Shown here piece after piece: positions 4,116 to 45,903 of a stretch of 64,000 nt of DNA; position 1 is the stretch's first letter, and each line of letters starts with the position of its first letter. The notes under the pieces are model-generated. The model had not been told where the DNA came from and ran no database searches. It was given only the letters and a program-made list of their open reading frames with translations. Source of the DNA: a virus; IMG/VR virus record IMGVR_UViG_3300021962_006171, positions 1-64,000 of that record; one strand, written 5' to 3'. A program made the position numbers and the translations under genes.

Positions 4116-5063
4116 ATGCGTATATTATTAACAGGTTCATCTGGATTCATTGGTCAACATCTAACTCCACGTTTAGAAAAAGATCATGAATTATTTCATT
4201 TAAAAAGCAATCTATTAGAGTTTGACGCTGTTCAGCAAGAAGTTAACAGCGTTAAACCTGACATTATTATTCACTTAGCAGCTCGAACAGAAGTTGAAAA
4301 TAGCTTCTATGAGCAAATCACATTTAGTCAAATTAACTATGTAGGAACTGTAAATCTAATAGAGGCTGCAAGCAAAGTTAAAAATTTAAAGAACTTTGTA
4401 TTTGCAAGTACTATGGAAGTGTATGGATGGCAACCTATAAGTGACGAAGTTAAAGAAAACATAATCCCCAAACGATTTATTGCATTTGACGAAAATACAA
4501 CTCCTAATCCTAATGCACCTTATGCTGTTGCAAAATACGGATGTGAAAAATATTTAGAATACGCACACAGAAGTTTAGGTCTTCCTTTTACAGCTATACG
4601 TCAAACTAATAGTTACGGTCGAAAGGACAACGACTTCTTTGTTACTGAGCAAATCATAACACAGATGTTAAAAAATCCAGAACGTATAGGATTAGGATAC
4701 GGTGAACCTTATCGCAACTTTATTTTTATTGACGATTTGCTAGATGCATGGTGTACAGTTATTAATAACCCTGCTAAAGTAAATAACGGATATATCTTTA
4801 CAATTGGTCCTGACAATCCTATCAAGATTAAAGATTATGTTAATATGATTGCAGATAAGATTGATTGGAGGGGAGAAGTAGTCTGGGATACTAAACCAGT
4901 GCGCCCAGGTGAAATATATTGGTTAAACAGCAATCATAGATTAATTACTAGTATTACAGGTTGGGGACCTAAAGTTAGTCTAAGTGATGGTGTTGACTAT
5001 ACTATTGATATTTGGAAAAGCGTATTAGATCAATCTAGCAAAAAGGTCCGTAGTATTCGGTAA
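4116..5063 (+). CDS. NAD-dependent epimerase/dehydratase (extended SDR)
   Basis: A 315-residue extended short-chain dehydrogenase/reductase. GSSGFIG (residues 7-13) is the nucleotide-binding loop, LAART (55-59) the usual strand-4 motif and YAVAK (136-140) the catalytic YxxxK, with the upstream Ser in FASTMEVYG (97-104). Length and motifs fit sugar-nucleotide epimerases and dehydratases (UDP-glucose 4-epimerase/GDP-mannose dehydratase-like), which act on NDP-sugars in the cytoplasm. It is the first island gene, after the hairpin at 4088-4108. Its last 39 bases overlap the convergent SGNH gene. Exact substrate is not readable. Confidence 0.85.
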   Translation: MRILLTGSSGFIGQHLTPRLEKDHELFHLKSNLLEFDAVQQEVNSVKPDIIIHLAARTEVENSFYEQITFSQINYVGTVNLIEAASKVKNLKNFVFASTMEVYGWQPISDEVKENIIPKRFIAFDENTTPNPNAPYAVAKYGCEKYLEYAHRSLGLPFTAIRQTNSYGRKDNDFFVTEQIITQMLKNPERIGLGYGEPYRNFIFIDDLLDAWCTVINNPAKVNNGYIFTIGPDNPIKIKDYVNMIADKIDWRGEVVWDTKPVRPGEIYWLNSNHRLITSITGWGPKVSLSDGVDYTIDIWKSVLDQSSKKVRSIR

Positions 5064-5810
5064 GTAATAAGATCTATCTTCCATACTAGGTACTTTCCAC
5101 TGTATGCTAGATAAATCTAATACTCCACTTTTATCTAAATTATCCAAAACAAACTTAGCAAGTATTCTATTATTGTCGTTTGTCATATGACATTGTCTTA
5201 AATCAAAATATTTGTTATAATCTTGACTTTCATCGTGTGTTAAATTCCACGCTTTTAATTCTAACTCATATACATTTTTTAAATCAGGAAATGCGTTAAT
5301 AAAAATTGTATCAGGTCGTTTAAACGTAATACTATCAATCATTGCTTGATTTATTAATTCAATCCTATCAATATCTTTATAATAAATGTTTTTAAAAAAA
5401 TCTGCAAGAGATGTGTAGTACTGCTTAAAAGAATTTCCCTTAGAAAATTTTATCCCTTCTAGTGCATCTTCTATAGAAGCACCGTGTAGCCATCCGTGTA
5501 TATTTGAACTATATCTTAAAGGACTTGTTATAACAAAAATACATTTATTATATTTTTTGTGATTGTTAATAAACTGGTTATAACTGTAATATAAATCACT
5601 TCCGCTTGCGCCAAAAACATCGGCGTCTAACAAGTCTACCCAAGGATGGTATCTTTTACCCCAATTACGCTTTAGAGTATCTATTTCTTTTTTATTATAG
5701 ACTTTATTACACAGTGCATATATCTCTTTTAAAAATCCTTCAGCGGTTGGTGATTCTTCAGTATATGTCCTAGTAGCAAAACTATCTCCAAATATTGCTA
5801 TTTTATTCAT
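5025..5810 (-). CDS. SGNH-hydrolase-like protein
   Basis: A 261-residue protein when started at the ATG at 5810, which shares its A with the upstream TAA (TAATG, coupled); an in-frame TTG 12 bases earlier is less likely. IAIFGDSFA (4-12) is the block-I motif of SGNH/GDSL esterases, with candidate nucleophile Ser10, and FGASGSDLYYSY resembles block III. The C-terminal D-x-x-H block is not clear, so activity is uncertain. SGNH proteins often remove or add acetyl groups on glycans. Last gene of the operon reading leftward from 11562; two more SGNH-like proteins lie at 17936 and 39700. Confidence 0.6.
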   Translation of the reverse strand: MNKIAIFGDSFATRTYTEESPTAEGFLKEIYALCNKVYNKKEIDTLKRNWGKRYHPWVDLLDADVFGASGSDLYYSYNQFINNHKKYNKCIFVITSPLRYSSNIHGWLHGASIEDALEGIKFSKGNSFKQYYTSLADFFKNIYYKDIDRIELINQAMIDSITFKRPDTIFINAFPDLKNVYELELKAWNLTHDESQDYNKYFDLRQCHMTNDNNRILAKFVLDNLDKSGVLDLSSIQWKVPSMEDRSYYLPNTTDLFARLI

Positions 5811-7294
5811 TAAGGTTTCCAATTTAGTTTACTCTGAATATATTGCCTTGTAAAAGCATCTGTATTCACTCTTCCGTCCGGCCCGTCATATTCGTAAGTA
5901 GGAGTCTTTAATCTTTCTTCAACTTCTTTTCCGTGCATTGCATTTGTTGCAAGCATCCAAATATCAGTCATAGAATTATTATTAAGAAATCCTGCTGATA
6001 TTGACTTTGCAATTTCCAAAGCTTCATCCATTGTCATATAATCATTTTCCCAGTAGACTGCATTTCTAGACGGGTCTCTAAAAATAGCTTCTTGATAAGT
6101 ATCGCTGTTTACTACAGTCCTTTCTCTATATCCATATTTTTTCCAATCTAGTGTAAAAGCAGAAGCGGCACCATAAACGTTTTTAGGAATTATTAATGGA
6201 TGTATAGTTATAGATACTTCAGGCGGCAAGTTTCTAATCCATTCTGCTGTATACATCATAGTTTCCCTTGTTTCATAAGGAAGACCAACTATAAAAGAAA
6301 GAGTTGATGCAAATAACTTACGACCGTTATTATTAAAATAGTTATAGATATCATAAAAGCCTTGCTTAGTTTTTTCAGGGTCCATTCCTTTACCTATTGA
6401 CTTACCGCTTTCATGATTAAGAGTTTCAATTCCATAAGCGTGACCAAGAAATCCCATGTTTAATAAAAGTTCTTTATCTTGTGGCCTGCTTATGAGAAGA
6501 TCAGCACGTATAAATCCTGCAAAAAATGGATCAAAGTCTAACTCTTGGACACCTTCTGCATAAGTTCTTATTTTTTCAGTAGTATCATTAAAAGTGTTAT
6601 CTGCAACAATATAATTTTTTACACCAAATCTATCATAGTTTTCTTTCATTTGAGTTACAAAACTTTCCTTTGCAGAAATATAATTGCCTTTAGCACTTAG
6701 GTAAGGAAAATCGCAAAATTTACATGCAAATTTGCAACCTCTTGAAAACTCCATAGTGAGCCATTCGCCTTCTCTTATAAAGTCTCTGTCTTCATATTGT
6801 ACTTCTAAGTTTGTCATTAACCCTGAAGAATATGGACTGTGTACACTATTAGCCAAGATAACTTTTTTGTTGGACCAAGGAAACTTGTGAATTTGCACAA
6901 CTTCACCGTTACTAAACAACTGGGATAATAAAGATATTAGTGCCTTCTCGCCATGTCCTATAATGTAATAATCGATATAGTTAGCATCATATGTAGGAAA
7001 TCCTTGCATTCCTGCCAATAGATAAACATTAGGATATGTTTCTTTAATCCATTTAGTAAATGCTTCCAATGTTGGCGTCCAGTATGCAAAAATATGCCCA
7101 AAACCTATAAATTTAGTATTAGCATTTATTCGAGATTTTACAAATTCTTTTAATTCTTCAAGTTTCCAACTTATAGTATAATCAACAGTTTCTGCATCCC
7201 AGTTATGCTGTCTAAGATAGTGTGCTATTCTATAAGTTCCGAATCCTCTTATAATATCGTCACACGATACATTAAAAATTAAACAGTGATGCAT
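5810..7294 (-). CDS. Radical SAM protein with B12-binding-like N-terminal domain
   Basis: A 494-residue protein. Residues 1-130 look like a cobalamin-binding-type Rossmann domain (FGTYRIAHYLRQHNWDAETVDY, then FIGFGHIF, YLLAGMQGFPT and GHGEKAL), but I find no DxHxxG, so B12 binding is uncertain. C187-x3-C191-x2-C194 (SRGCKFACKFCDFP) is the radical SAM cluster motif, followed by a TIM-barrel region with GIETLNHESGKSIGKGM and FIVGLPYETRE. Family knowledge: this class B-like layout performs methyl transfers or C-C/C-S chemistry. GGAA lies before the ATG. It sits between an amidinotransferase and an SGNH gene. Reaction unknown. Confidence 0.85.
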   Translation of the reverse strand: MHHCLIFNVSCDDIIRGFGTYRIAHYLRQHNWDAETVDYTISWKLEELKEFVKSRINANTKFIGFGHIFAYWTPTLEAFTKWIKETYPNVYLLAGMQGFPTYDANYIDYYIIGHGEKALISLLSQLFSNGEVVQIHKFPWSNKKVILANSVHSPYSSGLMTNLEVQYEDRDFIREGEWLTMEFSRGCKFACKFCDFPYLSAKGNYISAKESFVTQMKENYDRFGVKNYIVADNTFNDTTEKIRTYAEGVQELDFDPFFAGFIRADLLISRPQDKELLLNMGFLGHAYGIETLNHESGKSIGKGMDPEKTKQGFYDIYNYFNNNGRKLFASTLSFIVGLPYETRETMMYTAEWIRNLPPEVSITIHPLIIPKNVYGAASAFTLDWKKYGYRERTVVNSDTYQEAIFRDPSRNAVYWENDYMTMDEALEIAKSISAGFLNNNSMTDIWMLATNAMHGKEVEERLKTPTYEYDGPDGRVNTDAFTRQYIQSKLNWKP

Positions 7295-7306
7295 ACGAAT
7301 TATTCC

Positions 7307-8365
7307 TTAGCCAAAATAGTCTTGTAAGCCGCCTTTGCGCTTAACGTCTAGGGTATTACAATGGAAGCCACCGCTCATACTACGAGCTTGTCTTGCAGGA
7401 CACGGCACACTTTCAATACCGTGCTTGTCTAGTATACGCATTAATGGTTCTTGATCTTTGTCAATTACTACACAATTTTCATTAATACTTAGCAAATTCA
7501 TTCCAATCCATGGAGAGCAAGGGCTTACACCGTTTGGCAAGTTACAGCTAGGTGCAACTAAGTCATCCATACCTACAAATATCTTATCCCAGTTTTTAAA
7601 TATCTTTGGATAGTGATCTGGTCTGCAACGTTCAGCATTGAACATAACTAGTCCAGGGCGCAACGGAATAACAGTACTATCAAAGTGTGCAAAAAAATAA
7701 AAATCTTCTGCAAGATGCACTCGGTAGCCTCTAGGTTCAAGTATAGTTTTCAACCATTCAAATCCCAATATGCTTCCGGTATTGCTATGTTGATATAACA
7801 AGTCTCTGCCTAAGCGGACTACATTTGGTGCTTCCCAAACTATTTCGTTATTTTTAACCGTAGGCACACTTAAATCTTCAAATTGATATAAGTCATCTTT
7901 TAGTATAGGTGACGGACTTTTAATCCATTGAGTGCCTTCTTTCATTTGTTGATACAAGTAATCATAATACACTCTAGTTTCATATTGTCTTGCCCTCATT
8001 GGACTACTACACTCTAAAATAATATTATCTAAAGGCAATAATAAATCTCGTGGACAAAAACTATACCAACCAGTTGTAGTCCAGTCTGGACTACTAAACT
8101 CTACACTATGATCCATAGGAGTAGGGCGATGTACTTTGATACCTAATTTAGTTAGTGTATTGGCAAGAATATCTAAATCTTCTTCAGCTTCTTCCATAAT
8201 TTGTTTATCGTGGGGTCCTTCTAGATCTTTTAATTCTTCCTCACTATAAGTAGCATAAGAAAAACTTCTTACACTTGCGTTCATAGTAGGAAGTACAGCA
8301 CCTTTTGCTGTACCTACAAAGATCTCTTCTAATGGATCCCAATCGTTATTACTTTGTACTGCCAT
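7307..8365 (-). CDS. Glycine/arginine amidinotransferase family protein
   Basis: A 352-residue member of the arginine:glycine amidinotransferase family in the guanidino-group-modifying superfamily. The catalytic elements are visible: RLGRD (184-188), HFD (227-229) and the nucleophile region SGGFHC (331-336) with Cys336, followed by NTLDVKRKG. Length is close to the family's 350-420. The family moves an amidino group from arginine to an amine through a Cys-amidino intermediate; bacterial members serve natural-product and osmolyte pathways. It overlaps the aminotransferase gene by 17 bases, so one operon could make an amine and then guanidinylate it (inference). The acceptor is unknown. Confidence 0.85.
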   Translation of the reverse strand: MAVQSNNDWDPLEEIFVGTAKGAVLPTMNASVRSFSYATYSEEELKDLEGPHDKQIMEEAEEDLDILANTLTKLGIKVHRPTPMDHSVEFSSPDWTTTGWYSFCPRDLLLPLDNIILECSSPMRARQYETRVYYDYLYQQMKEGTQWIKSPSPILKDDLYQFEDLSVPTVKNNEIVWEAPNVVRLGRDLLYQHSNTGSILGFEWLKTILEPRGYRVHLAEDFYFFAHFDSTVIPLRPGLVMFNAERCRPDHYPKIFKNWDKIFVGMDDLVAPSCNLPNGVSPCSPWIGMNLLSINENCVVIDKDQEPLMRILDKHGIESVPCPARQARSMSGGFHCNTLDVKRKGGLQDYFG

Positions 8366-9275
8366 TTACGGCTCCTTCTAAAAATTTTATATCTTTGTTT
8401 AAAAAGTTATGCAATCCTAATCTATTAGTATTGCATCCTCGATTATATTCTGTATATTTTTCTTTTGGTGCTAGCCCAAAAAGTACTGTGTCACTAGGAA
8501 ATACTTTTAAGTGTTCACAGTATTTTTCTTGTATTGTTTTATATTTGTTTACAATGTAATCTGCTGGAAATTTACGTATAAGCTCTAATCCAATAGCTGC
8601 GCTAATCCTATTTGTATATTCTGCTTTGTCATATACAAATAACAAGTCATCGCAATCTTCTCTAGTTAATCTCAAGCCTATTCTAGCATGTGCTACCGGA
8701 AACATTTTGCTAAGACTAAATGTAACATCTGTTATACACGGGTGTGTTAAATCAACTCTTACATTACTACTAATCGAATAGTAAGCACAATCAATTAATA
8801 CTGGTATTCCTAACTGTGTGCATTTACAAAGTATCGATTCTGTTTCTAAGTGTTTAGACCCGGTATCTGCAAATGGAATACTAATAATTACAGCATCATT
8901 ACTGTCTAAAAAATCATCTTCAATGTATGCCCAATCATAACTGTCTCTCCATGCTAATTTATGATACAAGTACTCGCCTTTAAAGCAGCGAAAACGACGT
9001 TTGCTATTTTTTAAATAAAATTTATCAAATGCTTCCGACGTGCCTTGCGAAAAAACTGCATAGCTATAATCATCTAGTCCGTAAATTAAATTTAAATTGC
9101 TAGATTTTATCCAATTTAAATATTCAGAACAAAATTGTTTGTTTATGTTAGAGTTAGACAATACATCAGTAAATTTAAAATTGATGTTGTTTAACAACGT
9201 TTGTACTTCTAAATCTTCTATTGCTTTAGAGTGTCCAAATGGCAAATGTTTATTATCGTATTGATACTTACTCAT
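8349..9275 (-). CDS. PLP-dependent aminotransferase-like protein (fold type I)
   Basis: A 308-residue protein, short for the class I/II family (350-420). FSQGTSEAF (75-83) resembles the cofactor phosphate loop, PVLIDCAYYS (159-168) supplies the pyridine-N Asp162 and Tyr165, and SLSKMFPVAHARIGLRLT carries the candidate Schiff-base Lys190 and the phosphate-binding Arg198. The small C-terminal domain looks abbreviated. The expected reaction is transamination of a small keto-acid or keto-sugar. Overlaps both neighbours by 8 and 17 bases in the amidinotransferase operon. Confidence 0.7.
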   Translation of the reverse strand: MSKYQYDNKHLPFGHSKAIEDLEVQTLLNNINFKFTDVLSNSNINKQFCSEYLNWIKSSNLNLIYGLDDYSYAVFSQGTSEAFDKFYLKNSKRRFRCFKGEYLYHKLAWRDSYDWAYIEDDFLDSNDAVIISIPFADTGSKHLETESILCKCTQLGIPVLIDCAYYSISSNVRVDLTHPCITDVTFSLSKMFPVAHARIGLRLTREDCDDLLFVYDKAEYTNRISAAIGLELIRKFPADYIVNKYKTIQEKYCEHLKVFPSDTVLFGLAPKEKYTEYNRGCNTNRLGLHNFLNKDIKFLEGAVNGSTK

Positions 9276-9792
9276 TGTCTATCCAAGTAATTTGCATTAC
9301 TACAAAATCAGTAAAACTAAAGTTTCCAACACCATGCCAAGTATATGCATTCCAGGTATATGTATCTCCAACTGTCCAATTAATATGTGCATTGTCACCT
9401 ATTTGTAATATTTGACCGTGTGTCCAAGGAGTAAGCATTACGATAGTTCTGTTAATATTTTCTGCTTGCAACTCTGTTATATTGTTGTAACGAATAAATG
9501 TAGAATAACTATCATAATGCCACCATAAATTATAACCCGGCGTAAGCTTTAAAAAGTTAAAGTGATGCATTTTGTCACTAAACGGTTCTAAATACTTTTT
9601 TAAGTCTTGGCTTAGTTCAGGTTGTAATGCCATATAGTGCTTAGAACACTCTTTTGGCATATTGAGGTTGCGATACTGTTCCTCTAACTTTAACTTGTTA
9701 CTCGTGGCAAAGTTTTCCCAAACATCATTATGTGGGACCTCGTCAATCATATATGTCTCTAGCCAATTAAAAGTATCAAACTTAGCCGTCAT
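9268..9792 (-). CDS. 2OG-Fe(II)-type oxygenase / Asp-hydroxylase-like cupin
   Basis: A 174-residue double-stranded beta-helix protein. His92-x-Asp94 (WWHYDSYS) and distal His153 (TWHGVGN) form the expected facial triad, with PWTHGQILQIGDNAHINWTVGDTYTW between them, as in small aspartyl/asparaginyl-beta-hydroxylase-like proteins. No clear 2-oxoglutarate-binding Arg follows the last His, so the co-substrate is uncertain. ATGA overlap with the upstream glycosyltransferase-like gene. One of six such proteins in the island; probably hydroxylates a small molecule, peptide or sugar (inference). Confidence 0.65.
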   Translation of the reverse strand: MTAKFDTFNWLETYMIDEVPHNDVWENFATSNKLKLEEQYRNLNMPKECSKHYMALQPELSQDLKKYLEPFSDKMHHFNFLKLTPGYNLWWHYDSYSTFIRYNNITELQAENINRTIVMLTPWTHGQILQIGDNAHINWTVGDTYTWNAYTWHGVGNFSFTDFVVMQITWIDNE

Positions 9793-11078
9793 AGGGTTAT
9801 ATCTTTGTGTAAATTTTGTAGGCGCTGCTTATTATATAGCAGCGTTTCGTTCATTTCTTTGGTAACACTGGCTTGAACATCCTTAGGCAAGGACGCAATA
9901 TAATCTATAAGCTTAAATATTTTAATTATACGTTCAGCATGATCTTTTTCATTATCGTAACCTTCGTCCCACCATTTATCAAATGTTTTAAATCCTAAAT
10001 CTTTTAACGCAGCTAATGCCCCGGGTGGTCCTACAATAACAAAAGGCATTAAATTAAAAATGCTCCACATTGTTTTTTCAGTAACATACGCTGTTTCGTC
10101 AAAGAACCCAGACTCTGAAACTATGCTACAAAATACACCTTCATATATGTTACTGTTAATCGAATTTGGAAAAAAATCGGTAGTTGGCAACTTAGAAAAC
10201 CTATCAATCAATGATCCTGTTACAGGTGTTGCTGTTGTAATATGTTTATCGAGATTAATAGGGGTACGCTGATTTAGTTTTTCAAATCCGTTTATTAAAC
10301 TCTGAGGCGGATTAAACCATAATAAATTTTTAAAATCTTCTTGTGTACTAGTGTAATACCAACTTAACTTAGAATTATAATTAGAAAGATATGCTGCTAT
10401 AACATGTCTAAATGTGTCATAACGCCAATTAGAATTCACAAACGTATATTTGATATCTTTCTTAGGTATATCATCGGTGCTATTAAATTTTTCTAAATCT
10501 TGTAATAGATAAAAATCTTTCCATACAAACTTCATTGTTGTGTACATATTGTACTTGTGAAAAAATGTATCAACATCCTTTTCACACACATATACAGTTA
10601 CATTAGTTAGACGATTGTTATCTATAAGATCCTGTACACTATCTAACTGCATTGCTTTTGGATTTTGAAACTTTCCTATTACAGCACCGTTATTTTCTAA
10701 AGTAGGAAGAACTTCTTCAAGTGTATATCTATCCAAGTTAATTTTAGGACCGTCATACTTTAAAAGATTCTCTAATAGTATAATATGTAATCCGTTTTTA
10801 TTTAAATGTTCAACAGTCTTATCATCATAAAAAATTGTTGACAACTGTGGTAATTCCAAAGCGTGATTGGCAAGAATCCAGGATAACTGAGACTGTTTAA
10901 GTTTTATTTTTTCTACGTACCATAGCAAGTCATCAGGATAGCAACGCCAAACTTCAGCTGTTGGAAATATAAATTTAGTTTCGTCAAACTTGCTGTCTAT
11001 ATCTGCTCTAACACCGTTAGGAAATATATAACTTATCGAATCGTATATTTTTTCAAGGATTAAAGGTTCTACTAACAT
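9789..11078 (-). CDS. Fucosyltransferase-like glycosyltransferase
   Basis: A 429-residue protein. Its C-terminal domain (about 315-375) has SESGFFDETAYVTEKT, PFVIVGPPGALAALKDLGF and KTFDKWWDEGYD. This E...TEK...PFVxxG...LGFKTF...DExYD signature is shared with the proteins at 28268, 38475 and 40334 and resembles the donor-binding half of GT10-type fucosyltransferases. YTFVNSNWRYDTFRH (211-225) takes the place of the LNRxxxxxR element of the paralogs. Likely a cytoplasmic transferase using a nucleotide sugar; donor and acceptor unknown. Overlaps the next upstream oxygenase by 26 bases. Confidence 0.55.
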   Translation of the reverse strand: MLVEPLILEKIYDSISYIFPNGVRADIDSKFDETKFIFPTAEVWRCYPDDLLWYVEKIKLKQSQLSWILANHALELPQLSTIFYDDKTVEHLNKNGLHIILLENLLKYDGPKINLDRYTLEEVLPTLENNGAVIGKFQNPKAMQLDSVQDLIDNNRLTNVTVYVCEKDVDTFFHKYNMYTTMKFVWKDFYLLQDLEKFNSTDDIPKKDIKYTFVNSNWRYDTFRHVIAAYLSNYNSKLSWYYTSTQEDFKNLLWFNPPQSLINGFEKLNQRTPINLDKHITTATPVTGSLIDRFSKLPTTDFFPNSINSNIYEGVFCSIVSESGFFDETAYVTEKTMWSIFNLMPFVIVGPPGALAALKDLGFKTFDKWWDEGYDNEKDHAERIIKIFKLIDYIASLPKDVQASVTKEMNETLLYNKQRLQNLHKDITL

Positions 11079-11562
11079 CTATTCCGGTAACTTGTAAAGT
11101 ATATCTATCTTCCATACCCACATTAATTGCGCTATGTGGTGTTTCTCCGTTCCAGCCTTGAACATCACCAGCTTTCCATTTTGAATATACTGTGTCATTG
11201 ACAACTAGCATATGCCCTAGTTTACTATCCTCAAGGAATACAACGTACCTTTTAATTTGATTTAGATCTGTAATGTTATGCCTTGAAGCATAAAATTTAT
11301 ACCTATCAACATGCATGGGTAAAAAATGTCCTGGACGTAATCTATGGAAAGAAATGCCAATATCTCTTAAGTCTGGAAAGTGTTCTTTAATTTTTAATGT
11401 TATGCTATTATCTGTTGCGTTTTGGTATAAATCAATAGTCAAGTTATTTAAGTTATGTCCCGACTGCTTCCAGCGAGAAACTTGCTCCGAATCTCTAAAA
11501 GATTCTACAGTGTAATCTAAATTTAAATAGTAGTCGTCCCAAAAAGGAGTAATGTGTTTCAT
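11053..11562 (-). CDS. 2OG-Fe(II)-type oxygenase
   Basis: 169 residues from the ATG at 11562; the open frame continues upstream to 11637, but that part would run through the promoter and over the divergent gene, so I place the start at MKHITPFWDD. His84-x-Asp86 (PMHVDRY), His143 (TPHSAINVG) and Arg153 (MEDRYTL) make a full 2OG/Fe(II) metal triad plus 2OG-anchoring Arg, as in aspartyl/asparaginyl beta-hydroxylase-like proteins. First gene of the minus operon; its TATAAATA element is only four bases from the ATG. Confidence 0.75.
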   Translation of the reverse strand: MKHITPFWDDYYLNLDYTVESFRDSEQVSRWKQSGHNLNNLTIDLYQNATDNSITLKIKEHFPDLRDIGISFHRLRPGHFLPMHVDRYKFYASRHNITDLNQIKRYVVFLEDSKLGHMLVVNDTVYSKWKAGDVQGWNGETPHSAINVGMEDRYTLQVTGIDVSRTFNP

Positions 11563-11566
11563 ATTG

Positions 11567-11574
11567 TATTTATA
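11567..11574 (-). promoter_or_regulatory. T4-like late promoter, minus strand (TATAAATA)
   Basis: Exact TATAAATA read on the minus strand, ending four bases before the ATG at 11562. With the usual T4 geometry (start about six bases after the element) the transcript would begin at or beside the ATG and be almost leaderless. Confidence 0.6.
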
Positions 11575-11588
11575 GGTGTATAGGTAAC

Positions 11589-11596
11589 AATAAATA
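11589..11596 (+). promoter_or_regulatory. T4-like late promoter, plus strand (AATAAATA)
   Basis: AATAAATA followed five bases later by the ATG at 11602. It is back to back with the minus-strand element at 11567-11574, giving a compact divergent pair. Confidence 0.5.
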
Positions 11597-11601
11597 AAGT
11601 T

Positions 11602-34550: not shown

Positions 34551-34551
34551 T

Positions 34552-38456: not shown

Positions 38457-38486
38457 ATTATACAAACTTTTAAGCTAGTTTTCCAA
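38457..38486 (-). promoter_or_regulatory. Possible sigma70-like promoter
   Basis: On the minus strand TTGGAA (38486-38481), an 18-base gap and an exact TATAAT (38462-38457) lie upstream of the ATG at 38424. The -35 box is weak (4 of 6), so confidence is limited. It would give an early transcript for the dehydrogenase and downstream genes. Confidence 0.35.
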
Positions 38487-39710
38487 AGATGATGCTAAAT
38501 CATTTTGCAGTGTGCTAATAATTGTTTTTGCTCTATTCATAAAGTTGACTGCATTATGCTCGAGTATTGGCAAAAGTTTACGCATCAAATCGTTATTGAC
38601 AATTTTAGTAAACTCAATTGCCGCATTCGTAGCCTTTATAAGTCGAGTTTGATTGTCCGGTTCTAGATCATAACTTTCATCTATTACATTAGAAAATGTT
38701 TTATATCCAATTTTTCTTAGATTTTCAAGACCGTGTTTTTGTCCTATTAATACAAATGGCTGGAAATAAATAGCAGGCTTAAATATCTTTTCGCTAAAAA
38801 ATCCCTCGTCAGACATTGTTGTTTCAGTTACTATATGCAAATAACTGTTGTAAAACTTTTTAGAATGCGGATCAGATGTTGGATTGTTTTTATTGTCTGT
38901 GCTATCGTACGGATCAAGGTCAGCAGGCAATGCTAAAGGCATATGATTGTCTATCCTCTGCGTTATCCAAGACTGTGCTAAAATTGGCATATTATGATAG
39001 AATTGATTTTTTTGTTCTCGAATATACTGAGTATCGTTTTGGTGGAAGCCGTGCTGCCAAAAACTAAGTAGTCCTTGATCTCTATAAGGCCATAATTGTG
39101 ACACTGTGCCAAATCTGTGTACAGTTGCTCGACGATTTAAACATATAAACTTATAAGGTCTAATACTACTAGACAAAACTGCTGTTCTACCTAGTAATCG
39201 ATCTTCGGCGAAGCGTCTATTAGATGCTGCTACTTCCCAATTGTTATAATAGACTACTTTGCATTTAGGGTGATCATTCAACTTAGCTGTCATTAAGACA
39301 ATATGCGAATGTTTTATCTTATATTTTTTTATTATACCATCTATTACTTTATCATAAAGTCTCCACGGCCATCCTTCATAAGGACATACTAATAAAATTT
39401 TACACCAATTTTCGTTAATTAATTTTACTATTTCTGGTTGTATTGTTATTTGTTTAGCATAATCCCCTAATGCAGATAAACTAAAAATTATAGGATAAAA
39501 AAATTTTTTATTTTCAGGAATACTTGTATTAACTGAAAAAATTTTTCTAAAACTACCGTCAAACATTCCAAAATAACATTCGGCTGGGCTACCTTTGGGT
39601 GTAATAATAACTTTAGATACTAGATTTTTTGGTATTCCGTTTAGAAACGGCTTTCTATTTTCAACAGTGTAACTATTTCCATCGTTTTCAAAATACAAAT
39701 CAATTTTCAA
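38475..39710 (-). CDS. Fucosyltransferase-like glycosyltransferase (TTG start)
   Basis: A 411-residue protein starting at TTG 39710 (AAGGAA upstream); its LKIDLYFENDG lines up with MQIPLYTRLDG of the 40334 paralog, which supports this start. CPYEGWPWRLYD (109-120), FICLNRRATVHRFGTVSQL (188-206), TETTMSDEGFFSEKIF (295-310) and YKTF...DESYD (336-347) are shared with 40334 in the same order. The C-terminal part resembles GT10 fucosyltransferases. Donor and acceptor unknown. Confidence 0.6.
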   Translation of the reverse strand: MKIDLYFENDGNSYTVENRKPFLNGIPKNLVSKVIITPKGSPAECYFGMFDGSFRKIFSVNTSIPENKKFFYPIIFSLSALGDYAKQITIQPEIVKLINENWCKILLVCPYEGWPWRLYDKVIDGIIKKYKIKHSHIVLMTAKLNDHPKCKVVYYNNWEVAASNRRFAEDRLLGRTAVLSSSIRPYKFICLNRRATVHRFGTVSQLWPYRDQGLLSFWQHGFHQNDTQYIREQKNQFYHNMPILAQSWITQRIDNHMPLALPADLDPYDSTDNKNNPTSDPHSKKFYNSYLHIVTETTMSDEGFFSEKIFKPAIYFQPFVLIGQKHGLENLRKIGYKTFSNVIDESYDLEPDNQTRLIKATNAAIEFTKIVNNDLMRKLLPILEHNAVNFMNRAKTIISTLQNDLASSLEN

Positions 39711-40341
39711 CTTTATTTTTCCTTAAAATATAACCGTATCTAACTAACATGTATTCTGCAAATCTTTTATGAGTTTTTTCTCCCGGATGTGCATTGTCTA
39801 ATGCACGATCAAGAGGTTCTGAATGTACATTTTCATAAGTCATAATCATATCTTTATCAACTAATTCTTTCCATTCTATATGTTCAGATGCATTGTATCC
39901 TTGTATATTAATAACCTGGACGCCTTTGTTTTTTAAATATAAATTTGCATAGTTTATGTACAATTTTGTATTCCACAAATTATCATAATGTTCATAAAAA
40001 TACTTATAATAACTTTTTGAAAGTGAGTCAGTTTGCCACGGACCTATAAAAACAATATCGTCGTCTTTAGTTATCTGAGAAGTCCTATCAACATGAGTCC
40101 ATGCTAATAAACATATATCACCTTTAACAAAATCAAATTGCATTATTTTATGCACTATTCCCTTGTTGCTAATTCCAGGTCTGCTCAAATTAACATCTTG
40201 AAAATTACAGTGTTGCGCAATTAATCCTGGAAATGCAAAATTGCTTGGTGTAGGCCCGTATCCTTTATCTTTAGAATTGTAACAGTCTTTTAACCCGTGA
40301 CCATAGGGATATGAACATCCAAAGGTAACCAGTCTAGTCAT
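39700..40341 (-). CDS. SGNH-hydrolase-like protein
   Basis: A 213-residue protein with VTFGCSYPYGHG (Ser10), RPGISNKG as the GxxN block and LDNAHPGEKTH (Asp182, His185). All four catalytic positions are present. It is the closest relative of the 17936 product and sits between two glycosyltransferase-like genes with eight- and eleven-base overlaps, which suits a glycan O-acyl esterase or transferase (inference). Confidence 0.7.
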   Translation of the reverse strand: MTRLVTFGCSYPYGHGLKDCYNSKDKGYGPTPSNFAFPGLIAQHCNFQDVNLSRPGISNKGIVHKIMQFDFVKGDICLLAWTHVDRTSQITKDDDIVFIGPWQTDSLSKSYYKYFYEHYDNLWNTKLYINYANLYLKNKGVQVINIQGYNASEHIEWKELVDKDMIMTYENVHSEPLDRALDNAHPGEKTHKRFAEYMLVRYGYILRKNKVEN

Positions 40342-41545
40342 TTAAGAATCTCCATAGTGATTCTTTTAATTCAAAATCAATCATAAGAGATCTATAAACA
40401 AGCATAGATGAATTATGACTCAACACATGAGACATATCAGAAATAATATCTTTTAATTCTTCTTCAGGCTTTGTAAAAAATTCTATAGATGCTCTTACCG
40501 CTGCACGTAATCTCATATCATTGTTTTCAATGCCGTCATAACTTTCGTCAATCCAATTACTAAAAGTTTTGTATCCCATATTTTTTAATGCACGTAATGC
40601 ATACGGTTCTCCTACAATTACAAAAGGCTGTAAGAACATGATAGGTTTAAAAATTTTCTCACTGAAAAATGTTCTGTTTTTACAAGTATATTGATAGGTT
40701 TCAGGACATATGTGTAAATAACTGTCAAAAAACTTTTCGGTAGCCCAGTCATGAACAGGATTTTCAAACTCAGGATTTCTTCCATCATTAATACGTAAAG
40801 GTATATGAGATCTTATATCTTTTTCAATATACTTGTCAAATGATGTAGGATACCCTTTCATAAACAATTCTTCTTGTTCTTCATAATATCCTTTATACAT
40901 TTGACCACTTCGTCCAAGACTCAATAGTCCTTGATCTTTATAATCAAATAGTTCTGATACTAATGCCAGTCTTCCTGCATGTGGGCGCCTATTTAAACAG
41001 ATAAACTTGTGAGGCCTCGAAACACGCGGACCAATCTTTTCTACATGTGCCTTTTCTTGGAAGAAAGATAAATTTTCATATCTAGGCTGTCTCTCCCAAA
41101 AACTATAATAGACTGTCTGTATTTCATCTATAGGATGCACGTTTGCGCAAGAAAATACAAACTTATCTAAAGTAAGCCAAGTATTATTTGCAATAATAAC
41201 ATCCGCTACTTCTATCCAGAAATCCCAACTCCATCCTTCAAATGGGTTAGTAACAAAAATTTTGCAATTATTATTTAAAATGTCTTGTTCAACATTCTTA
41301 GGTATTTGTATATTTTTTATAATTTCTAAAGAATGTTCAAAACTTACAATTATAGGAAAATAGTATTTTTTATCATTAGAGTACTCTTTAAAAACAACTT
41401 TGAAAGGATCGCCATATAAACCAAAGTACCCTGTAGGGTCATCTGTTTTTACAAAATATTGATCAGTTAAGTTTTCAAGAGGGAACCCACAACAGAATTT
41501 ATACTTTGGGTCGCCGTCTAATCTTGTATATAAAGGAATTTGCAT
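40334..41545 (-). CDS. Fucosyltransferase-like glycosyltransferase
   Basis: A 403-residue paralog of 38475. PFEGWSWDFW (101-110), FICLNRRPHAGRLALVSELF (181-200), PETYQYTCKNRTFFSEKIFKPIMFLQPFVIVGEP and MGYKTFSNWIDESYD are shared in order. The two may act in sequence on one glycan. It abuts the 41546 gene, whose stop directly precedes the ATG. Cytoplasmic; no signal peptide. Confidence 0.6.
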   Translation of the reverse strand: MQIPLYTRLDGDPKYKFCCGFPLENLTDQYFVKTDDPTGYFGLYGDPFKVVFKEYSNDKKYYFPIIVSFEHSLEIIKNIQIPKNVEQDILNNNCKIFVTNPFEGWSWDFWIEVADVIIANNTWLTLDKFVFSCANVHPIDEIQTVYYSFWERQPRYENLSFFQEKAHVEKIGPRVSRPHKFICLNRRPHAGRLALVSELFDYKDQGLLSLGRSGQMYKGYYEEQEELFMKGYPTSFDKYIEKDIRSHIPLRINDGRNPEFENPVHDWATEKFFDSYLHICPETYQYTCKNRTFFSEKIFKPIMFLQPFVIVGEPYALRALKNMGYKTFSNWIDESYDGIENNDMRLRAAVRASIEFFTKPEEELKDIISDMSHVLSHNSSMLVYRSLMIDFELKESLWRFLND

Positions 41546-42472
41546 TTATTGTCCTAACTTTTCAATAAATCGCTGATGATCAGTTCTTGCAGGTTGTTCA
41601 TATACTGTCTTAAAAAAAATACTCTGCTCAGGGGTTAGCATTTCGCCTATAGGTAATTCTAAATCTTTAACTAAAATTTTTCCTAGTTCTGATGTTCTTT
41701 CTCGAACTGTAGTGTCGTTCATGTTTTTAAATTCTTCAGCCCACATTCCGTCAAGGTAAGAAAAATCTCGTACATTAACATAGTCCCAATCAGTTAACAT
41801 TGTTTTATAAATTCCTTCTCTTGCGCCAAGGATAGCCCATATACCATTTTCTACATCAGAGCCAACCATAGTCCAAATATACAACCAATGTAAACAGCGC
41901 CAATGATTTTTTAAAAAATTTTCTTTACTAGGTTTTACTCCCCTATCTAAAGACAATTTAACACCTTCTCTAAACCCTGCTCTCCATGCTTGTGCAGGTG
42001 TCGCATTATTGTAAACATCAGACCAACAACTGTTCATCTGTATATAATGTGCGTCCCAGCAAAAATCTACCTGAGCTTGTTTATTTTTAGGATCAGCTGC
42101 CTCATGTGTTCTCATATTAAGCACATAAGATTTTGGCCAACATTTTAAGCCGCCATTGCCATACATCAAACCGTTTATTGCATTTCTTCCACACCAACTA
42201 ATAACAGCGTTATCGAGGCCTGCATGTTCGTTGAAATCAATTTCTTGATTTAAAAATTCGGCGCGGACGACATTATCTCCGTCTACAGTAATAAAACGAT
42301 CTGTTTCACTTAATCTAGCACAAGCCTTGTGCGCTTCGTCGCTACCTTTAACACCATGTACACGTTTAGCCCATGGAATTTTTTTACACAAGTCTGCGTA
42401 GTTTTTTTCAGCGTTTGGTTCATCATAGCTGAGATAGATGATATCATAATCAATAACTTTAAATTTTGTCAT
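41546..42472 (-). CDS. GT-A-type glycosyltransferase-like protein
   Basis: A 308-residue protein opening with YDIIYLSYDEPNAEKNYADL and VHGVKGSDEAHKACA, then FITVDGDN with Asp64-x-Asp66, a DxD metal motif typical of GT-A folds. YGNGGLKCWPK follows. It is the intact relative of the interrupted 26963-27649 gene. The C-terminal third (about 200-300) is extra compared with that gene. ATGA overlap with the upstream 42469 gene. Confidence 0.6.
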   Translation of the reverse strand: MTKFKVIDYDIIYLSYDEPNAEKNYADLCKKIPWAKRVHGVKGSDEAHKACARLSETDRFITVDGDNVVRAEFLNQEIDFNEHAGLDNAVISWCGRNAINGLMYGNGGLKCWPKSYVLNMRTHEAADPKNKQAQVDFCWDAHYIQMNSCWSDVYNNATPAQAWRAGFREGVKLSLDRGVKPSKENFLKNHWRCLHWLYIWTMVGSDVENGIWAILGAREGIYKTMLTDWDYVNVRDFSYLDGMWAEEFKNMNDTTVRERTSELGKILVKDLELPIGEMLTPEQSIFFKTVYEQPARTDHQRFIEKLGQ

Positions 42473-43863
42473 TCTACAATCTCATGTGCATAAGTTTCAA
42501 AATATTTTGTTGCATAAACGCTAATATCTTCTTTAGAATGTTCCCATGCATACTTGAACGGAAACACATACTCTGCACCAGCAACTAAATCATTTAATGA
42601 AAATTCAAGTGTACGATAAAGAACGTTTGGATCAAATTTAGATGTTACACTAAAATACATAGTGTCTATACCTATCCAATTAGTATTCTGTAGTGCTTTT
42701 GCTGTTTTTTTACCTAAATAAATGTTCCATGAACCTTTTGCATTATTCTGAACAAGATTTATATCGCTGTCAAAGACTTCTTTTGATCTGACCAACGATA
42801 ATGATTTTCCTATCAATACCTTAGAACCAGATTCAAGTGTTAACGGATCGTACACATCGACTTTTGTTTTTACACTAGTAAAGGTTGCTTGTGGTTCTTC
42901 ATTTATATTGTGAGAGCTAATAGCTAAGGTTGCTAACATTTTTGAAGGTTCATCAAAATAGCAAGGTGTCTGATCATCAAGGTAAAACACTATCGCAGAA
43001 TTTTCTGCCAGTAATGAAACCTCACTACTATACATAAACATTTTATTAAATTTTAAAACCTTGTTTCCGTTTTGGAGTTTTTCAGTAAATTTTAAGTACT
43101 TATTTTCATCGTCGTATAGCTGTATATTAGACACAACTAGTTCTGCATTCTCAATATTAAACGGTGTTCCTGCCTCTTGGTCTAACAGTAGTCTATATAC
43201 ACTGTTATTAATCCATACGTGTTGTCCGGATAAATGATCTAATTCATCATACCAGACATCTACATGTATTCCTTCGTAGATAGGTTTAAAATTTTTATTT
43301 ACAATCTGAATGTCTACATTTGTTTCTACATCAGATAGAAATACATCAGATATGTACAAAGTTACTTTTTCTAAATCTAATTCGTCTGCAGACTCCATAT
43401 CTGATTGCACAATATAAACATTGCCCTGATACCAAATAATGTCATCCTTCTTGTAACTACGTAAAGGAGACCAAATATAAACATTAACACCGTCATAGAT
43501 GTTTTCAAAAAGTAATGTACGTCTTTCTGACCTAGAACTACTTCTATATACAGGTAATCTATATAGTTGTGATTCAATTGATTCTAATTCATCTTCTATG
43601 CTGAGTTTTTTCAGTACTAGTTGTTTTAAAACAACATCATATGCAACTAAAAACTCATTAGTATTACTTTTACCTTCAAGAATACTAGCAACTTCGTCAT
43701 GCTTTACTTCTAGTACGTCTTGAGTATCTTCTAAAACTAATGGCTTAACATTAGATATTCTATCAACAGTTCCTAGTTCTTTATCAAAAACAACATAAGA
43801 AGTTTCAATATCAACATCAATGTTTACATTTAAACTTTTTAAAAAGTTTTGAAAATTAGACAT
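42469..43863 (-). CDS. Unknown beta-rich protein with carbohydrate-binding-like modules
   Basis: A 464-residue protein without enzyme motifs. Two related modules (about 118-160 and 205-245) read VYIWSPLRSYKKDDIIWYQGNVYIVQ and VDVWYDELDHLSGQHVWINNSVYRLL. This W...V/D...Y/W-x-G/N-x-VY pattern is that of small carbohydrate-binding modules also visible in the giant structural protein. It may be a virion-attached protein, or one that binds the glycan made by neighbouring enzymes. Overlaps glycosyltransferase-like genes on both sides. Confidence 0.5.
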   Translation of the reverse strand: MSNFQNFLKSLNVNIDVDIETSYVVFDKELGTVDRISNVKPLVLEDTQDVLEVKHDEVASILEGKSNTNEFLVAYDVVLKQLVLKKLSIEDELESIESQLYRLPVYRSSSRSERRTLLFENIYDGVNVYIWSPLRSYKKDDIIWYQGNVYIVQSDMESADELDLEKVTLYISDVFLSDVETNVDIQIVNKNFKPIYEGIHVDVWYDELDHLSGQHVWINNSVYRLLLDQEAGTPFNIENAELVVSNIQLYDDENKYLKFTEKLQNGNKVLKFNKMFMYSSEVSLLAENSAIVFYLDDQTPCYFDEPSKMLATLAISSHNINEEPQATFTSVKTKVDVYDPLTLESGSKVLIGKSLSLVRSKEVFDSDINLVQNNAKGSWNIYLGKKTAKALQNTNWIGIDTMYFSVTSKFDPNVLYRTLEFSLNDLVAGAEYVFPFKYAWEHSKEDISVYATKYFETYAHEIVE

Positions 43864-44701
43864 TTAAATAATTCCTATAACGTTCAATTATTTCAGGTGT
43901 TACAAAATCGTTTTCCGTATAATGTAATATTCCAAGCTGCTCGTAGTTTCCTATTTTGATTTTACAATCTCTAGTTATGTAAGTACCAACGCAATCTTGC
44001 CATCGGTTCCTAGGTTCAGACCAATTTTGAACATATGGTTTCATATGAGTAAATGTTGGAAAACTACTAATCTTGTTAGTAATCTTAGCATCGCAGTCTA
44101 AAAGTTTAGCTACAATTGCTGCGCTCACGTCAATACTAGGACGTTTAGGATAAAATTCCTTTGCATAAGATCCGTAAAACAATTGCCAGTTTTGCATTAC
44201 TAGTTCTAGCCATTTGTAAAATTCAATTGCAAATTTACTCTTTTCAAAGTAATGAAGACCACTGTATAAGTTAGGCAAGTTGTTTGCTGTAAATGTCTTT
44301 CGATAATAATCGCTAGATATCTCTTCGTTTCTATAGGTAAAAACTTTACTAGTGAAAAATAATTCATAATTTGATAGGAATTTCCACCAACTAGATATAT
44401 CTTGTAGCACTAGCATATCTGTATCAAGAACTAAGGTTTGATCATACGGGCTTGCATAATAGATTTTCCATCTATTTTCAATTTTCCAATTGCTATCAGC
44501 TGCATCATCTTCAAACGGTATTGGAATAATTTGGTCAAACAAATTTATGTATTCTTCGTTAACTGTGTTATTTGTTACAACGCTTATAAGCGTAGTTGGA
44601 TTTGTAACTTTTAGACTCATTGCTAGCAAACAGGCTTGTAGAACATAATCATGTTCATCGGTGTTTTGAGCAAGTACTACTACACCTCTAGTTTTATCCA
44701 T
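43856..44701 (-). CDS. GT-A glycosyltransferase-like protein (GT8-like)
   Basis: A 281-residue protein. GVVVLAQNTDEHDYVLQACLLAMSL is the nucleotide-sugar entry strand, YDQTLVLDTDMLVL (86-99) carries Asp93-x-Asp95, and LPNLYSGLHYFEKSKFAIEFY fits the acceptor-side region. Overlaps the related 44694 gene by eight bases. Probably retaining, nucleotide-sugar-dependent; substrate unknown. Confidence 0.65.
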   Translation of the reverse strand: MDKTRGVVVLAQNTDEHDYVLQACLLAMSLKVTNPTTLISVVTNNTVNEEYINLFDQIIPIPFEDDAADSNWKIENRWKIYYASPYDQTLVLDTDMLVLQDISSWWKFLSNYELFFTSKVFTYRNEEISSDYYRKTFTANNLPNLYSGLHYFEKSKFAIEFYKWLELVMQNWQLFYGSYAKEFYPKRPSIDVSAAIVAKLLDCDAKITNKISSFPTFTHMKPYVQNWSEPRNRWQDCVGTYITRDCKIKIGNYEQLGILHYTENDFVTPEIIERYRNYLNV

Positions 44702-45557
44702 TGCTTGCTCCTAACTTGTCAATTATACGCTCTAGACTAAATTTGTTCATAATATGGATATTCTGTTTATTGGCTTTTATTAGTGTGTATTCTCCGAGAT
44801 AGTCTTTTTTTTCTACTAACAAAACTATTTTATCTCCGTCAATATTTTGTAAGACATCCCTGTCAGATGAATAATAATGCTTGCCTGGTAAAGGAGCAAC
44901 AAATGTACCTTTGTTAAAGCCATTCATGATATGAACAGCAATGCTAAATGCAAAATCATTTCTAAACAATCCTGATTTAATTTGGTAAACTCGTCTATAA
45001 TGATGCCAATTTTCTTTAATATGTTTAACTAGGCTAAAAAACACTTCATTTTCAGGAGTTTTTCTAAAAAATACTACTGTAGCCCAATAAAAGTCAACAG
45101 TATAATCGCTTATATAATTAAATTCTCTAGCGTCACGCCAATCTGAAATATCGCTTGACTCTTTGTACAACATTAAATTGTGCTGAGAGTCAAAACATTT
45201 TAATAGAGTGTTGTTAGATACAATATAGTCAACATCCATTAGCAACGTTTCGTCATATGGAGACATATCGTATACTCCGTCACGCATATCGTTTTTGAAT
45301 GGGGCTGTTTTATGATATAAAGATCCGTCAAAGTATGCTCTATTATTACGTGTTTCTTGGTAGTCAACTGTAATTATTTTATCAAATAAACTAAAGTCAA
45401 AACTAGATACTAGATAGTCAGTACTGTCTGTAATTATAGATACCGGTAATCCTAGATATTCTTTTACTCGTTTAGCAAAAAACACTGCCTGCTTAACGTA
45501 ATCAAGCTGACCGTTATTGCGAGCAAAAACAATTACGCCTTTAGTTTGCTTCGTCAT
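44694..45557 (-). CDS. GT-A glycosyltransferase-like protein (GT8-like)
   Basis: A 287-residue paralog of 43856: GVIVFARNNGQLDYVKQAVFFAKRV, then YDETLLMDVDYIV (101-113) with Asp108-x-Asp110. FYWATVVFFRKTPENEVFFSLVKHIKENW matches the region after the DxD in its neighbour. A tandem duplication is likely. ATG lies within the last codons of the 45541 gene. Confidence 0.65.
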   Translation of the reverse strand: MTKQTKGVIVFARNNGQLDYVKQAVFFAKRVKEYLGLPVSIITDSTDYLVSSFDFSLFDKIITVDYQETRNNRAYFDGSLYHKTAPFKNDMRDGVYDMSPYDETLLMDVDYIVSNNTLLKCFDSQHNLMLYKESSDISDWRDAREFNYISDYTVDFYWATVVFFRKTPENEVFFSLVKHIKENWHHYRRVYQIKSGLFRNDFAFSIAVHIMNGFNKGTFVAPLPGKHYYSSDRDVLQNIDGDKIVLLVEKKDYLGEYTLIKANKQNIHIMNKFSLERIIDKLGASNG

Positions 45558-45903
45558 AATCTACCAGCGACTCTATTTTCCTACTTTGTTTTAATTTTTC
45601 GTAATTTGTAAAATACTCATTGGCTGCACTAAAGTATAAGTCTAGAATGTTATCATAAAATTTGGTTAGATCGGAAATCTTAGCAGGGATATCGTTATCG
45701 TCAGTAAGTACAATATCTGTATCGTTGCCTTTGTCAATTAACAGTCCAACAAATGTGATTAATTCCTTTGTTACAGAAAACTGACATCCATTTGAAAAAT
45801 ATAACAAGTCTTCATAATATTTTTCTTTAAGCATACGTTTTTGATTGTTTAGCGTTACCATAAAATTGCTAAACTTTAAAGCTTTTTCTAAGCGTTCGTC
45901 CAT
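45541..45903 (-). CDS. Conserved small marine-phage protein
   Basis: A 120-residue, mostly helical protein (MDERLEKALKFSNFMVTLNNQKRMLKEKYYEDLLYFSNG...). I recall this shape in marine T4-like phages as an unassigned conserved protein. First gene after the sigma70-like promoter at 45976-46003, with CAGGAG as ribosome site. A regulatory or assembly role cannot be told from sequence. Confidence 0.65.
   Translation of the reverse strand: MDERLEKALKFSNFMVTLNNQKRMLKEKYYEDLLYFSNGCQFSVTKELITFVGLLIDKGNDTDIVLTDDNDIPAKISDLTKFYDNILDLYFSAANEYFTNYEKLKQSRKIESLVDYDEAN

Follow-up and report, generated by a model that had tools for sequence, protein, structure and literature searches.

The stretch of DNA analysed here (the window) comprises bases 1–64000 of the 69,902-base virus record IMGVR_UViG_3300021962_006171, in which a block of mostly enzyme genes at 4116–45903 stands between structural genes. 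This block is best explained as the hypervariable host-recognition island of a lineage of large aquatic T4-superfamily phages, with a VWA gene on one side and fibre and baseplate genes on the other. Within the island, a cassette at 18513–27649 consists of six radical SAM (rSAM) genes, a methyltransferase-like gene and a gene for a protein like the glycosyltransferases (GT) of fold GT-A. The conserved rSAM set points to an undescribed biosynthetic pathway.

The conserved cassette and its locus

Genes are named here by their first coordinate, with the strand given as + or −. Several functional names were assigned by eye, the caller of open reading frames (ORFs) was crude, and the family counts rest on iterated profiles. 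The cassette begins with two rSAM genes on one strand, 18513 (18513–19784, +), of the N-terminal-twitch type, and 19768 (19768–20691, +). These are followed on the other strand by the rSAM gene 20686 (20686–21699, −), the N-terminal-twitch rSAM gene 21657 (21657–23087, −), the methyltransferase-like gene 23590 (23590–24216, −; no Pfam match), the rSAM genes 24951 (24951–25973, −) and 25921 (25921–26982, −), and the gene for a 228-aa GT-A-like protein (26963–27649, −; 64–75% identical in cassette loci), called 27188 below. 19768, 20686, 24951 and 25921 were recognised by Pfam, while 18513 (319 bits), 21657 (387 bits) and, outside the cassette, 36120 (180 bits) pass the 170-bit cut-off of the N_Twi_rSAM family NF033640. 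The genes 21657, 24951 and 25921 accompany one another in phages and bacteria and are referred to as the triad. Two further genes lie within the span, one for a GNAT-like acyltransferase (23027–23590, −; motif-level, no Pfam match, in 14 of 33 cassette loci among the matches listed) and one for a nucleotide-sugar dehydrogenase-like protein (24209–24958, −; Pfam UDPG_MGDP_dh, E 2e-13). In this record, the GT-A-like gene is broken into ORFs 26963 and 27188 by an in-frame TAG at 27190, which reflects either a recent nonsense mutation or an error in the sequence; the gene is intact in the near-identical contig IMGVR_UViG_3300021961_005592 (G001; 115,209 bases), which contains the window with 16 differences. 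The 74-aa ORF 26963 was also considered as a precursor peptide and rejected, as it is the end of the broken GT-A-like gene.

IMG/VR was searched with the single proteins 24951 and 21657, which gave at least 597 and at least 595 relatives, so that cassette genes are common in viral contigs. Co-occurrence was counted in loci of at least 15 kb, and the figures represent loci, not independent events. All eight genes were found together in at least 40 further viral loci, where they span 7.8–13.7 kb. Among the matches listed, the loci drawn with 24951 contain 21657 in 22 of 25 cases and 25921, 27188 and 23590 in 25 of 25 each, and those drawn with 21657 contain 24951 in 31, 25921 in 32, 27188 in 26 and 23590 in 32 of 33 cases (57 of 58 loci for 23590 over both searches). 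The commonest order, again among the matches listed, is 27188-25921-24951-23590-21657-20686, then 19768-18513 on the opposite strand, which is the arrangement of the window. A PP-loop protein like 17271 (17271–17948, +; SGGADS motif; Pfam QueC E 1e-3, below the cut-off) accompanies the cassette in 15 of the 25 listed loci drawn with 24951 and in 29 of the 33 drawn with 21657. Nine phages have orthologues of both 21657 and 24951 and four have neither. The 23590 family is under purifying selection (dN 0.052 vs dS 1.05, a rough estimate with dS near saturation). With its gene set and order conserved and selection evident, the cassette probably works as one pathway. The sequence-only reading had taken the density of enzymes over the whole 42 kb as a sign of one complete pathway; the gene set and order are kept only over about 10 kb (18513–27649), and the remainder comes and goes. 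Thus, the term unit is supported for the cassette, not for all 42 kb.

A small molecule or a modified nucleotide (an antiviral, an anti-competitor or a cofactor) in place of a surface conjugate is a very improbable product of the cassette. Several rSAM proteins do have weak viperin-like matches, and the PanD, nitronate-monooxygenase-like and PP-loop genes of the island suit small-molecule chemistry, but GT-like genes are present in the cassette and at the island border, and the viperin cut-off is clearly missed. With 49 bits at best against the 180 bits required for prokaryotic viperin (NF038283), a viperin or defence identity of the rSAM proteins was ruled out.

The locus was examined in 30 contigs related via the two flanks or via the rSAM protein 36120; all are genome fragments. 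Twelve of them reach from the VWA gene to the fibre gene 48004, and in all 12 the gap between the two is 24–69 kb. Among 16 long contigs drawn with the cassette, the VWA gene was found in 13, the fibre gene 51489 in 13 and both in 12 (three contig pairs look like duplicates), and in these 12 of 12 the cut-off-passing N_Twi rSAM genes sit between the VWA gene and 51489. Since this second search started without the flanks, it provides independent support for the locus, and altogether an island of 24–69 kb is present at the same place in all 24 contigs that reach across both flanks. In 13 contigs, rSAM genes (profile plus CxxxCxxC) make up 118 of 433 island genes vs 10 of 1025 genes elsewhere (odds ratio 38; Fisher p 3e-55, which overstates independence because the contigs are kin), and their fraction exceeds that outside the island in every contig. 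The outcome named in the sequence-only reading as a refutation, genes scattered with no grouping or mostly wrong calls, is not what was found: most calls are right, and in 24 contigs the island stands at one locus.

The content of the island is largely variable. Its right end, 41546–45903 (a GT-A-like protein, a conserved protein, two GT8-like proteins and a small protein), is kept beside the fibres in nearly all relatives, so that the variable island proper is 4116–41545. Most of the remaining genes are common to some relatives only; 4116–11078 is shared with one locus (L064) at 48–93% identity, and most of 23590–38424 with two others (L164 and L165) at 54–83%, with several less similar genes interspersed. 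The GC content is 0.329 in the island vs 0.364 in the flanks. Genes that come and go and a lowered GC content are also what might be seen if unrelated host-derived metabolic genes had been trapped in a recombination hotspot and had no common product. However, the set, order and strands of the cassette are kept in many viral loci, the triad is kept in bacteria, and purifying selection is evident, which makes this explanation quite improbable; disfavoured for the cassette, it may still describe the accessory genes.

Relatives of the cassette in Bdellovibrionota

A profile of 21657 was scanned over 84,980 species genomes. Its nearest relatives there (44–51% identity over the full length) occur almost only in Bdellovibrionota, whose proteins are 47–51% identical to 21657 of the window and where 24951-like (45–57%) and 25921-like (30–36%) genes lie within about 10 kb, usually together with a GT-A-like gene and often with a methyltransferase gene too. 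Among the bacterial loci with at least 42% identity to 21657, 17 of 19 match both partners (two weakly), while none of the more distant loci does. The setting is chromosomal, with SerS, UvrD-like, DnaG and pilus genes in the flanks (by eye). Moreover, nine Bdellovibrionota genomes have 12–33 NF033640 matches each, and none above the cut-off was found in 14 control genomes. The 36120 profile gave no relative in a first scan of genome contigs. The tree of 24951 relatives leaves the order of the phage and bacterial groups open, but two or more switches between phage and bacterial hosts are needed to explain it.

In one metagenome-assembled genome (MAG) of Bdellovibrionia (L337–L338, contig C1, about 745–775 kb), about 14 rSAM genes lie in a chromosomal island of 27 kb that is set between ordinary housekeeping genes. 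This island also contains two HxD…H proteins, a StrB-type amidinotransferase, a protein like the aminotransferase-like 8349 and four proteins like 12918, which is nearly the phage inventory. In Halobacteriovorax marinus (L345, 17473–19141), a gene for a 97-aa PqqD-like protein (by eye) adjoins an rSAM gene, perhaps a separate locus of the type making ribosomally synthesised and post-translationally modified peptides (RiPPs). Some apparent bacterial loci proved to be viral. The two marine MAG contigs G039 and G040 were rejected as bacterial; these contigs, PAAV01000055.1 (L329–L333, Chloroflexi MAG) and PBYV01000081.1 (L334–L336, Acidimicrobiaceae MAG), are T4-like phage fragments with rSAM islands of their own, and the terminase, sheath, portal, polymerase and primase-helicase genes on them indicate that the bins are contaminated. 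A Planctomycetota MAG (L294) includes a contig with the phage VWA marker.

From the shared cassette, it is conceivable, though improbable, that phages of this lineage even infect Bdellovibrionota. A search for the fibre protein 53546 in 144 genomes of the phylum gave no match, which has little meaning for a lytic phage. Bdellovibrio recognises prey via tail-fibre-like proteins (PMC10769870). From the shared cassette alone one could also assume an unrecognised pathway, common to tailed phages and predatory Bdellovibrionota, that would chemically modify the recognition fibres or adhesins of both, but we regard this as improbable.

Other genes of the island and its flanks

The left flank carries the gene for a VWA/metallopeptidase-like phage core protein (34–1341, +), present as a single copy in 18 of the 30 related contigs and in 13 of the 16 cassette-drawn contigs, whose closest named relatives (about 40% identity) are in jumbo phages such as Sinorhizobium phage Phosso (469 kb), PA5oct and Atu_ph07. 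At the left edge of the island lies a fibre-like structural gene (2858–4084, +), with a member of its family at the same place in 11 of 13 contigs. The right flank consists of fibre- and baseplate-side structural genes (46005–54157, −) that are kept in relatives and give a tail-collar-type match to named phages. The related contigs encode terminase, portal and capsid proteins of T4 type, 30–37% identical to those of HTVC008M, and gp6-like and gp25-like baseplate proteins are encoded on G001. From these proteins, the phage is a divergent member of the T4 superfamily, probably of jumbo type. No DNA match to named phages was found for the stretch 4000–28900, tblastn against named phages with 36120 and with a GT8 gene gave no match, and 21657 gave remote matches only. 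No tRNA gene was found in the window. The ORF at 54176–63688 is part of a 5112-aa baseplate-side protein of G001, which occupies the place of VrlC in pelagimyophages and has no detectable similarity to it. Left of the window, at oriented coordinates 17725–18597 of G001, a QueE-like protein was noticed by eye; the phage may therefore modify its DNA with 7-deazaguanine.

The block at 4116–45903 contains 50 ORFs and, with 26963 and 27188 counted as one TAG-split gene, 49 genes, in agreement with the count of about 49 made from the sequence alone. Most of the enzyme classes named in that reading could be confirmed, though to different degrees. All eight rSAM proteins exceed the gathering score of Pfam PF04055 and have CxxxCxxC, and the amidinotransferase and PanD are clear. 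The six HxD…H oxygenases all have the motif, while only 12272 reaches the cut-off of Pfam Asp_Arg_Hydrox (PF05118) and two others match it weakly. All four PP-loop ATPases have SGGxDS, with weak Pfam or PDB support, and none reaches the QueC, TilS or LarE cut-off, on which ground a queuosine-type DNA modification by these proteins was ruled out. For the aminotransferase, profile support is present but weak. As for the eight or more GT-like proteins, two are GT8-like by a weak profile and two are GT-A-like by the fold of one member at a low TM score, while 9789, 28268, 38475 and 40334 are without any match. Profiles additionally support a nitronate-monooxygenase-like protein, a cupin, a DUF2061 protein, two sugar-nucleotide dehydrogenase-like proteins and an epimerase. 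Ten island proteins compared with PHROGs gave one weak match, to a family of unknown function.

The left part of the island starts with an NAD-dependent sugar epimerase/dehydratase (4116–5063, +; Pfam Epimerase 1e-39; 89% identical in L064) and an SGNH-hydrolase-like protein (5025–5822, −; GDS motif only, no Pfam match). Next to them is an rSAM protein of B12-binding-type architecture (5810–7294, −), which is above the Pfam Radical_SAM cut-off and has B12 rSAM families as top NCBIfam matches, all under the cut-off. The StrB-type amidinotransferase (7307–8365, −; 93% identical in L064) matches the inosamine-phosphate amidinotransferase StrB (1bwd, E 6e-84) over residues 4–346, that is, full-length, contains the GGFHC catalytic Cys region and is under purifying selection (dN 0.045 vs dS 1.39, dN/dS about 0.03, a rough estimate with dS near saturation). 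It is followed by the pyridoxal-phosphate aminotransferase-like 8349 (8349–9275, −; profile A10 matches 3if2 at E 0.004, and related proteins occur in rSAM islands of Bdellovibrionota), an HxD…H oxygenase-like protein (9268–9792, −; HYD92…H153) and the conserved family of 9789 (9789–11078, −; no Pfam or PDB match), which had been called GT-like. Three HxD…H proteins stand in a row: an Asp/Asn-hydroxylase-like one (11053–11637, −; PF05118 E 1e-4, slightly below the cut-off), an oxygenase-like one (11602–12285, +; PF05118 E 0.007, below the cut-off; HAD82…H125) and the Asp/Asn-hydroxylase-like 12272 (12272–12958, +; PF05118 1e-14). The last is paired with 12918 (12918–14150, +), a two-part protein whose C-terminal part is weakly methyltransferase-like, with relatives in 6 other contigs and four in a Bdellovibrionia island; its structure model is poor (pLDDT 64), and its best fold matches, to methyltransferases at E 1e-3, are a hint only. 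12272 and 12918 are neighbours in five phage contigs and fused in G011 (L262:7407–8984), and so form a second small functional unit. Up to the cassette there follow two proteins that are kinase-like by eye and grouped by profile (14168–14722, +, no Pfam match; 16528–17274, +, in 18 of 33 cassette loci among the matches listed) and two HxD…H oxygenase-like proteins (14715–15263, +, HWD108…H165; 15740–16657, −, recognised by motif and found in 16 of 33 of the same listed loci).

To the right of the cassette, all genes are on the − strand. They encode a protein that is sulfotransferase-like by eye (27652–28281, no Pfam match), the conserved family of 28268 (28268–29434), two PP-loop proteins with SGGIDS (29431–30615, Pfam ATP_bind_3 0.004, below the cut-off; 30977–32089), the cupin (32691–33302, Cupin_2 6e-8), the nitronate-monooxygenase-like flavoprotein (33332–34204, Pfam NMO 2e-11), the aspartate decarboxylase PanD (34206–34616, Asp_decarbox E 1e-32) and the DUF2061 membrane protein (34552–35061, Pfam 9e-26), by hydropathy count the sole clear multi-span protein of this island. 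Then come a further PP-loop protein (35003–36127, SGGADS, 77–78% identical in L164 and L165), the N-terminal-twitch rSAM protein 36120 (36120–37220) and a nucleotide-sugar dehydrogenase of UDP-glucose type (37195–38424, recognised by Pfam; NDP-sugDHase 1e-42, below the cut-off; 47% identical to the UDP-glucose dehydrogenase of HTVC008M). Two conserved families (38475–39710 and 40334–41545), called GT-like before as was 28268, enclose an SGNH-hydrolase-like protein (39700–40341, GCS motif only, no Pfam match). The conserved right border comprises the GT-A-like 41546 (41546–42472, in 12 of 12 spanning contigs), a probably structural protein (42469–43863, family in 8 contigs), two GT8-like proteins (43856–44701 and 44694–45557, each in 12 of 12 contigs), with a weak glycogenin match (E 0.003 for the first) and DTD conserved in profile A9, and a small protein (45541–45903, in 11 of 12 contigs).

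A possible product and comparison with known systems

A hypermodified glycan or a conjugate used on fibres or on the infected cell surface had been proposed from the sequence. This is plausible from the sugar dehydrogenases, the epimerase, the StrB-type amidinotransferase and the GT-like neighbours, while its individual steps are inferred. Judging from these gene families, the product is probably an unusual, heavily modified sugar conjugate. PP-loop amidotransferases and amidinotransferases occur in the making of unusual bacterial sugars. We assume that the sugar-nucleotide dehydrogenases and the epimerase would supply activated sugars, that the rSAM, HxD…H, amidinotransferase and PP-loop enzymes would rework a nucleotide sugar or a short glycan, and that the soluble GT-A-like and GT8-like enzymes would attach the modified sugar to the final acceptor, which might be the receptor-binding fibres of the phage itself. 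Swapping accessory enzymes would then change the decoration of the fibres, and thereby host recognition or shielding. Since the island is always beside the receptor-binding fibres, these seem the most likely acceptor, although this is the least certain step and is proposed tentatively.

Membrane proteins are scarce in the islands: 13 of 433 island proteins have at least two predicted spans, and there is one 11-span protein across the 13 islands. With so few, soluble substrates are a better fit than a lipid-carrier polysaccharide route of the self-contained Wzx/Wzy kind, and either the acceptor would be cytosolic, with the fibres as the obvious one, or host machinery would be used. With host lipid carriers and export, the enzymes could alter the O-antigen or some other glycan in the envelope of the infected cell, for example to exclude other phages. 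Such remodelling of the host surface has been proposed for the glycosyltransferases of the pelagimyophage host recognition cluster (PMC7029224); sugar-nucleotide enzymes are present in the island, and the cassette is also chromosomal in bacteria, where at one locus (L292) GT2-like and UDP-galactopyranose-mutase-like genes adjoin it (by eye). However, it is rather doubtful here, as membrane proteins are almost absent, the window itself encodes neither a flippase nor a polymerase nor an initiating transferase, and the linkage is constantly to fibre genes, not to early genes.

The constant adjacency of the fibres would also suit rSAM enzymes that directly modify amino-acid side chains of fibre or virion proteins, in a RiPP-like manner but with no separate small precursor, with the GT-like enzymes adding to this. 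The rSAM proteins are Twitch/SPASM-related and weakly match SkfB and some other peptide maturases, and the fold modelled for 41546 (AlphaFold, pLDDT 84) is closest to the peptide S-glycosyltransferases SunS and ThuS; in Foldseek it matches SunS/ThuS, TarP and RmlT with probabilities up to 1.0 but TM scores of only 0.31–0.36. Yet no rSAM protein passes a RiPP-maturase cut-off, and no conserved gene of precursor size was found inside the islands of the 13 contigs, so direct protein modification is unlikely.

Several points weigh against a sugar conjugate on the fibres. Substrate, product and acceptor are all deduced from gene families and neighbours; the GT identifications depend on profile or fold matches that are weak, and for four of the supposed GTs there is no match at all; peptides are frequent substrates of rSAM/SPASM-type enzymes, so a sugar substrate is not a given; and adjacency to fibre genes is no proof of action on fibres. 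In addition, no fibre genes were evident beside the cassette in the Bdellovibrionota loci read by eye, which was no systematic test.

The setting resembles a known one. In pelagimyophages, a hypervariable host recognition cluster (HRC) averaging 44.6 kb was reported in 2020; it includes glycosyltransferases as well as rSAM cassettes, and its authors considered that it might alter host O-chains (PMC7029224). As in the HRC of pelagimyophages and cyanomyophages (PMC7029224), a large hypervariable island (here 24–69 kb) lies beside tail-fibre genes of T4-superfamily marine phages and contains sugar-nucleotide genes (Pfam-supported here) and glycosyltransferase genes (weakly supported here). In contrast to the HRC, it belongs to a distinct jumbo-type lineage, has the VWA gene at its far border with no match to gp14, and consists to about one quarter of rSAM genes, with a defined conserved multi-gene rSAM cassette. 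On the baseplate side, gp6 and gp25 homologues adjoin the 5112-aa protein, which has no detectable similarity to VrlC of HTVC008M. Since the gp14 border was not found, the island is treated as an analogue of the HRC, not as a member. The cultured pelagimyophage HTVC008M itself has four 2-oxoglutarate-Fe(II) oxygenase genes in a row in its HRC and one rSAM profile match genome-wide.

A single T4-like marine virus with numerous rSAM genes has also been recorded. The environmental virus TARA_ERS488813_N000010 has 12 of them according to a 2017 survey (PMC5332604); by that description, the only basis of the comparison, they are read as an iron-sulphur theme, and an island, a cassette or a bacterial counterpart is not mentioned there. 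Group II Campylobacter phages have several rSAM genes (PMC12398825). Similarly, the cyanophages P-SSM2, S-SSM7 and S-SM2 have large sugar-gene clusters, termed lipopolysaccharide clusters, in expanded T4-like genomes, which as described sit near hli03/phoH and tRNAs, with no rSAM set in that description (PMC3037559); the present island differs in standing at the fibre locus, with no tRNA in the window (hli03/phoH were not searched for). NF033640, to which three of the rSAM proteins belong, is a sequence-defined family without known function, and the cassette context is outside its definition. The Bdellovibrionota islands have the same triad and GT-A-like and methyltransferase-like relatives, and in one genome also the amidinotransferase, aminotransferase-like, HxD…H and 12918-like genes, but they are chromosomal, with more rSAM copies and no evident fibre locus. 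A search of the open-access literature gave no account of the eight-gene cassette, of the fact that Bdellovibrionota share it, or of the Bdellovibrionota islands themselves. The idea of a previously undescribed system thus has to be narrowed to the cassette, for the setting is known from the HRC (PMC7029224) and an rSAM-rich T4-like virus is on record in the account of the 2017 survey (PMC5332604).

What had been a vague enzyme island becomes a defined and testable unit, whose gene order is preserved in many viral loci and whose core is present in predatory bacteria. This result questions the habit of treating such genes as scattered auxiliary metabolism. Should the cassette yield a surface or fibre conjugate, it would give phages a new means of varying host recognition and would be rich in rSAM chemistry that is still uncharacterised.

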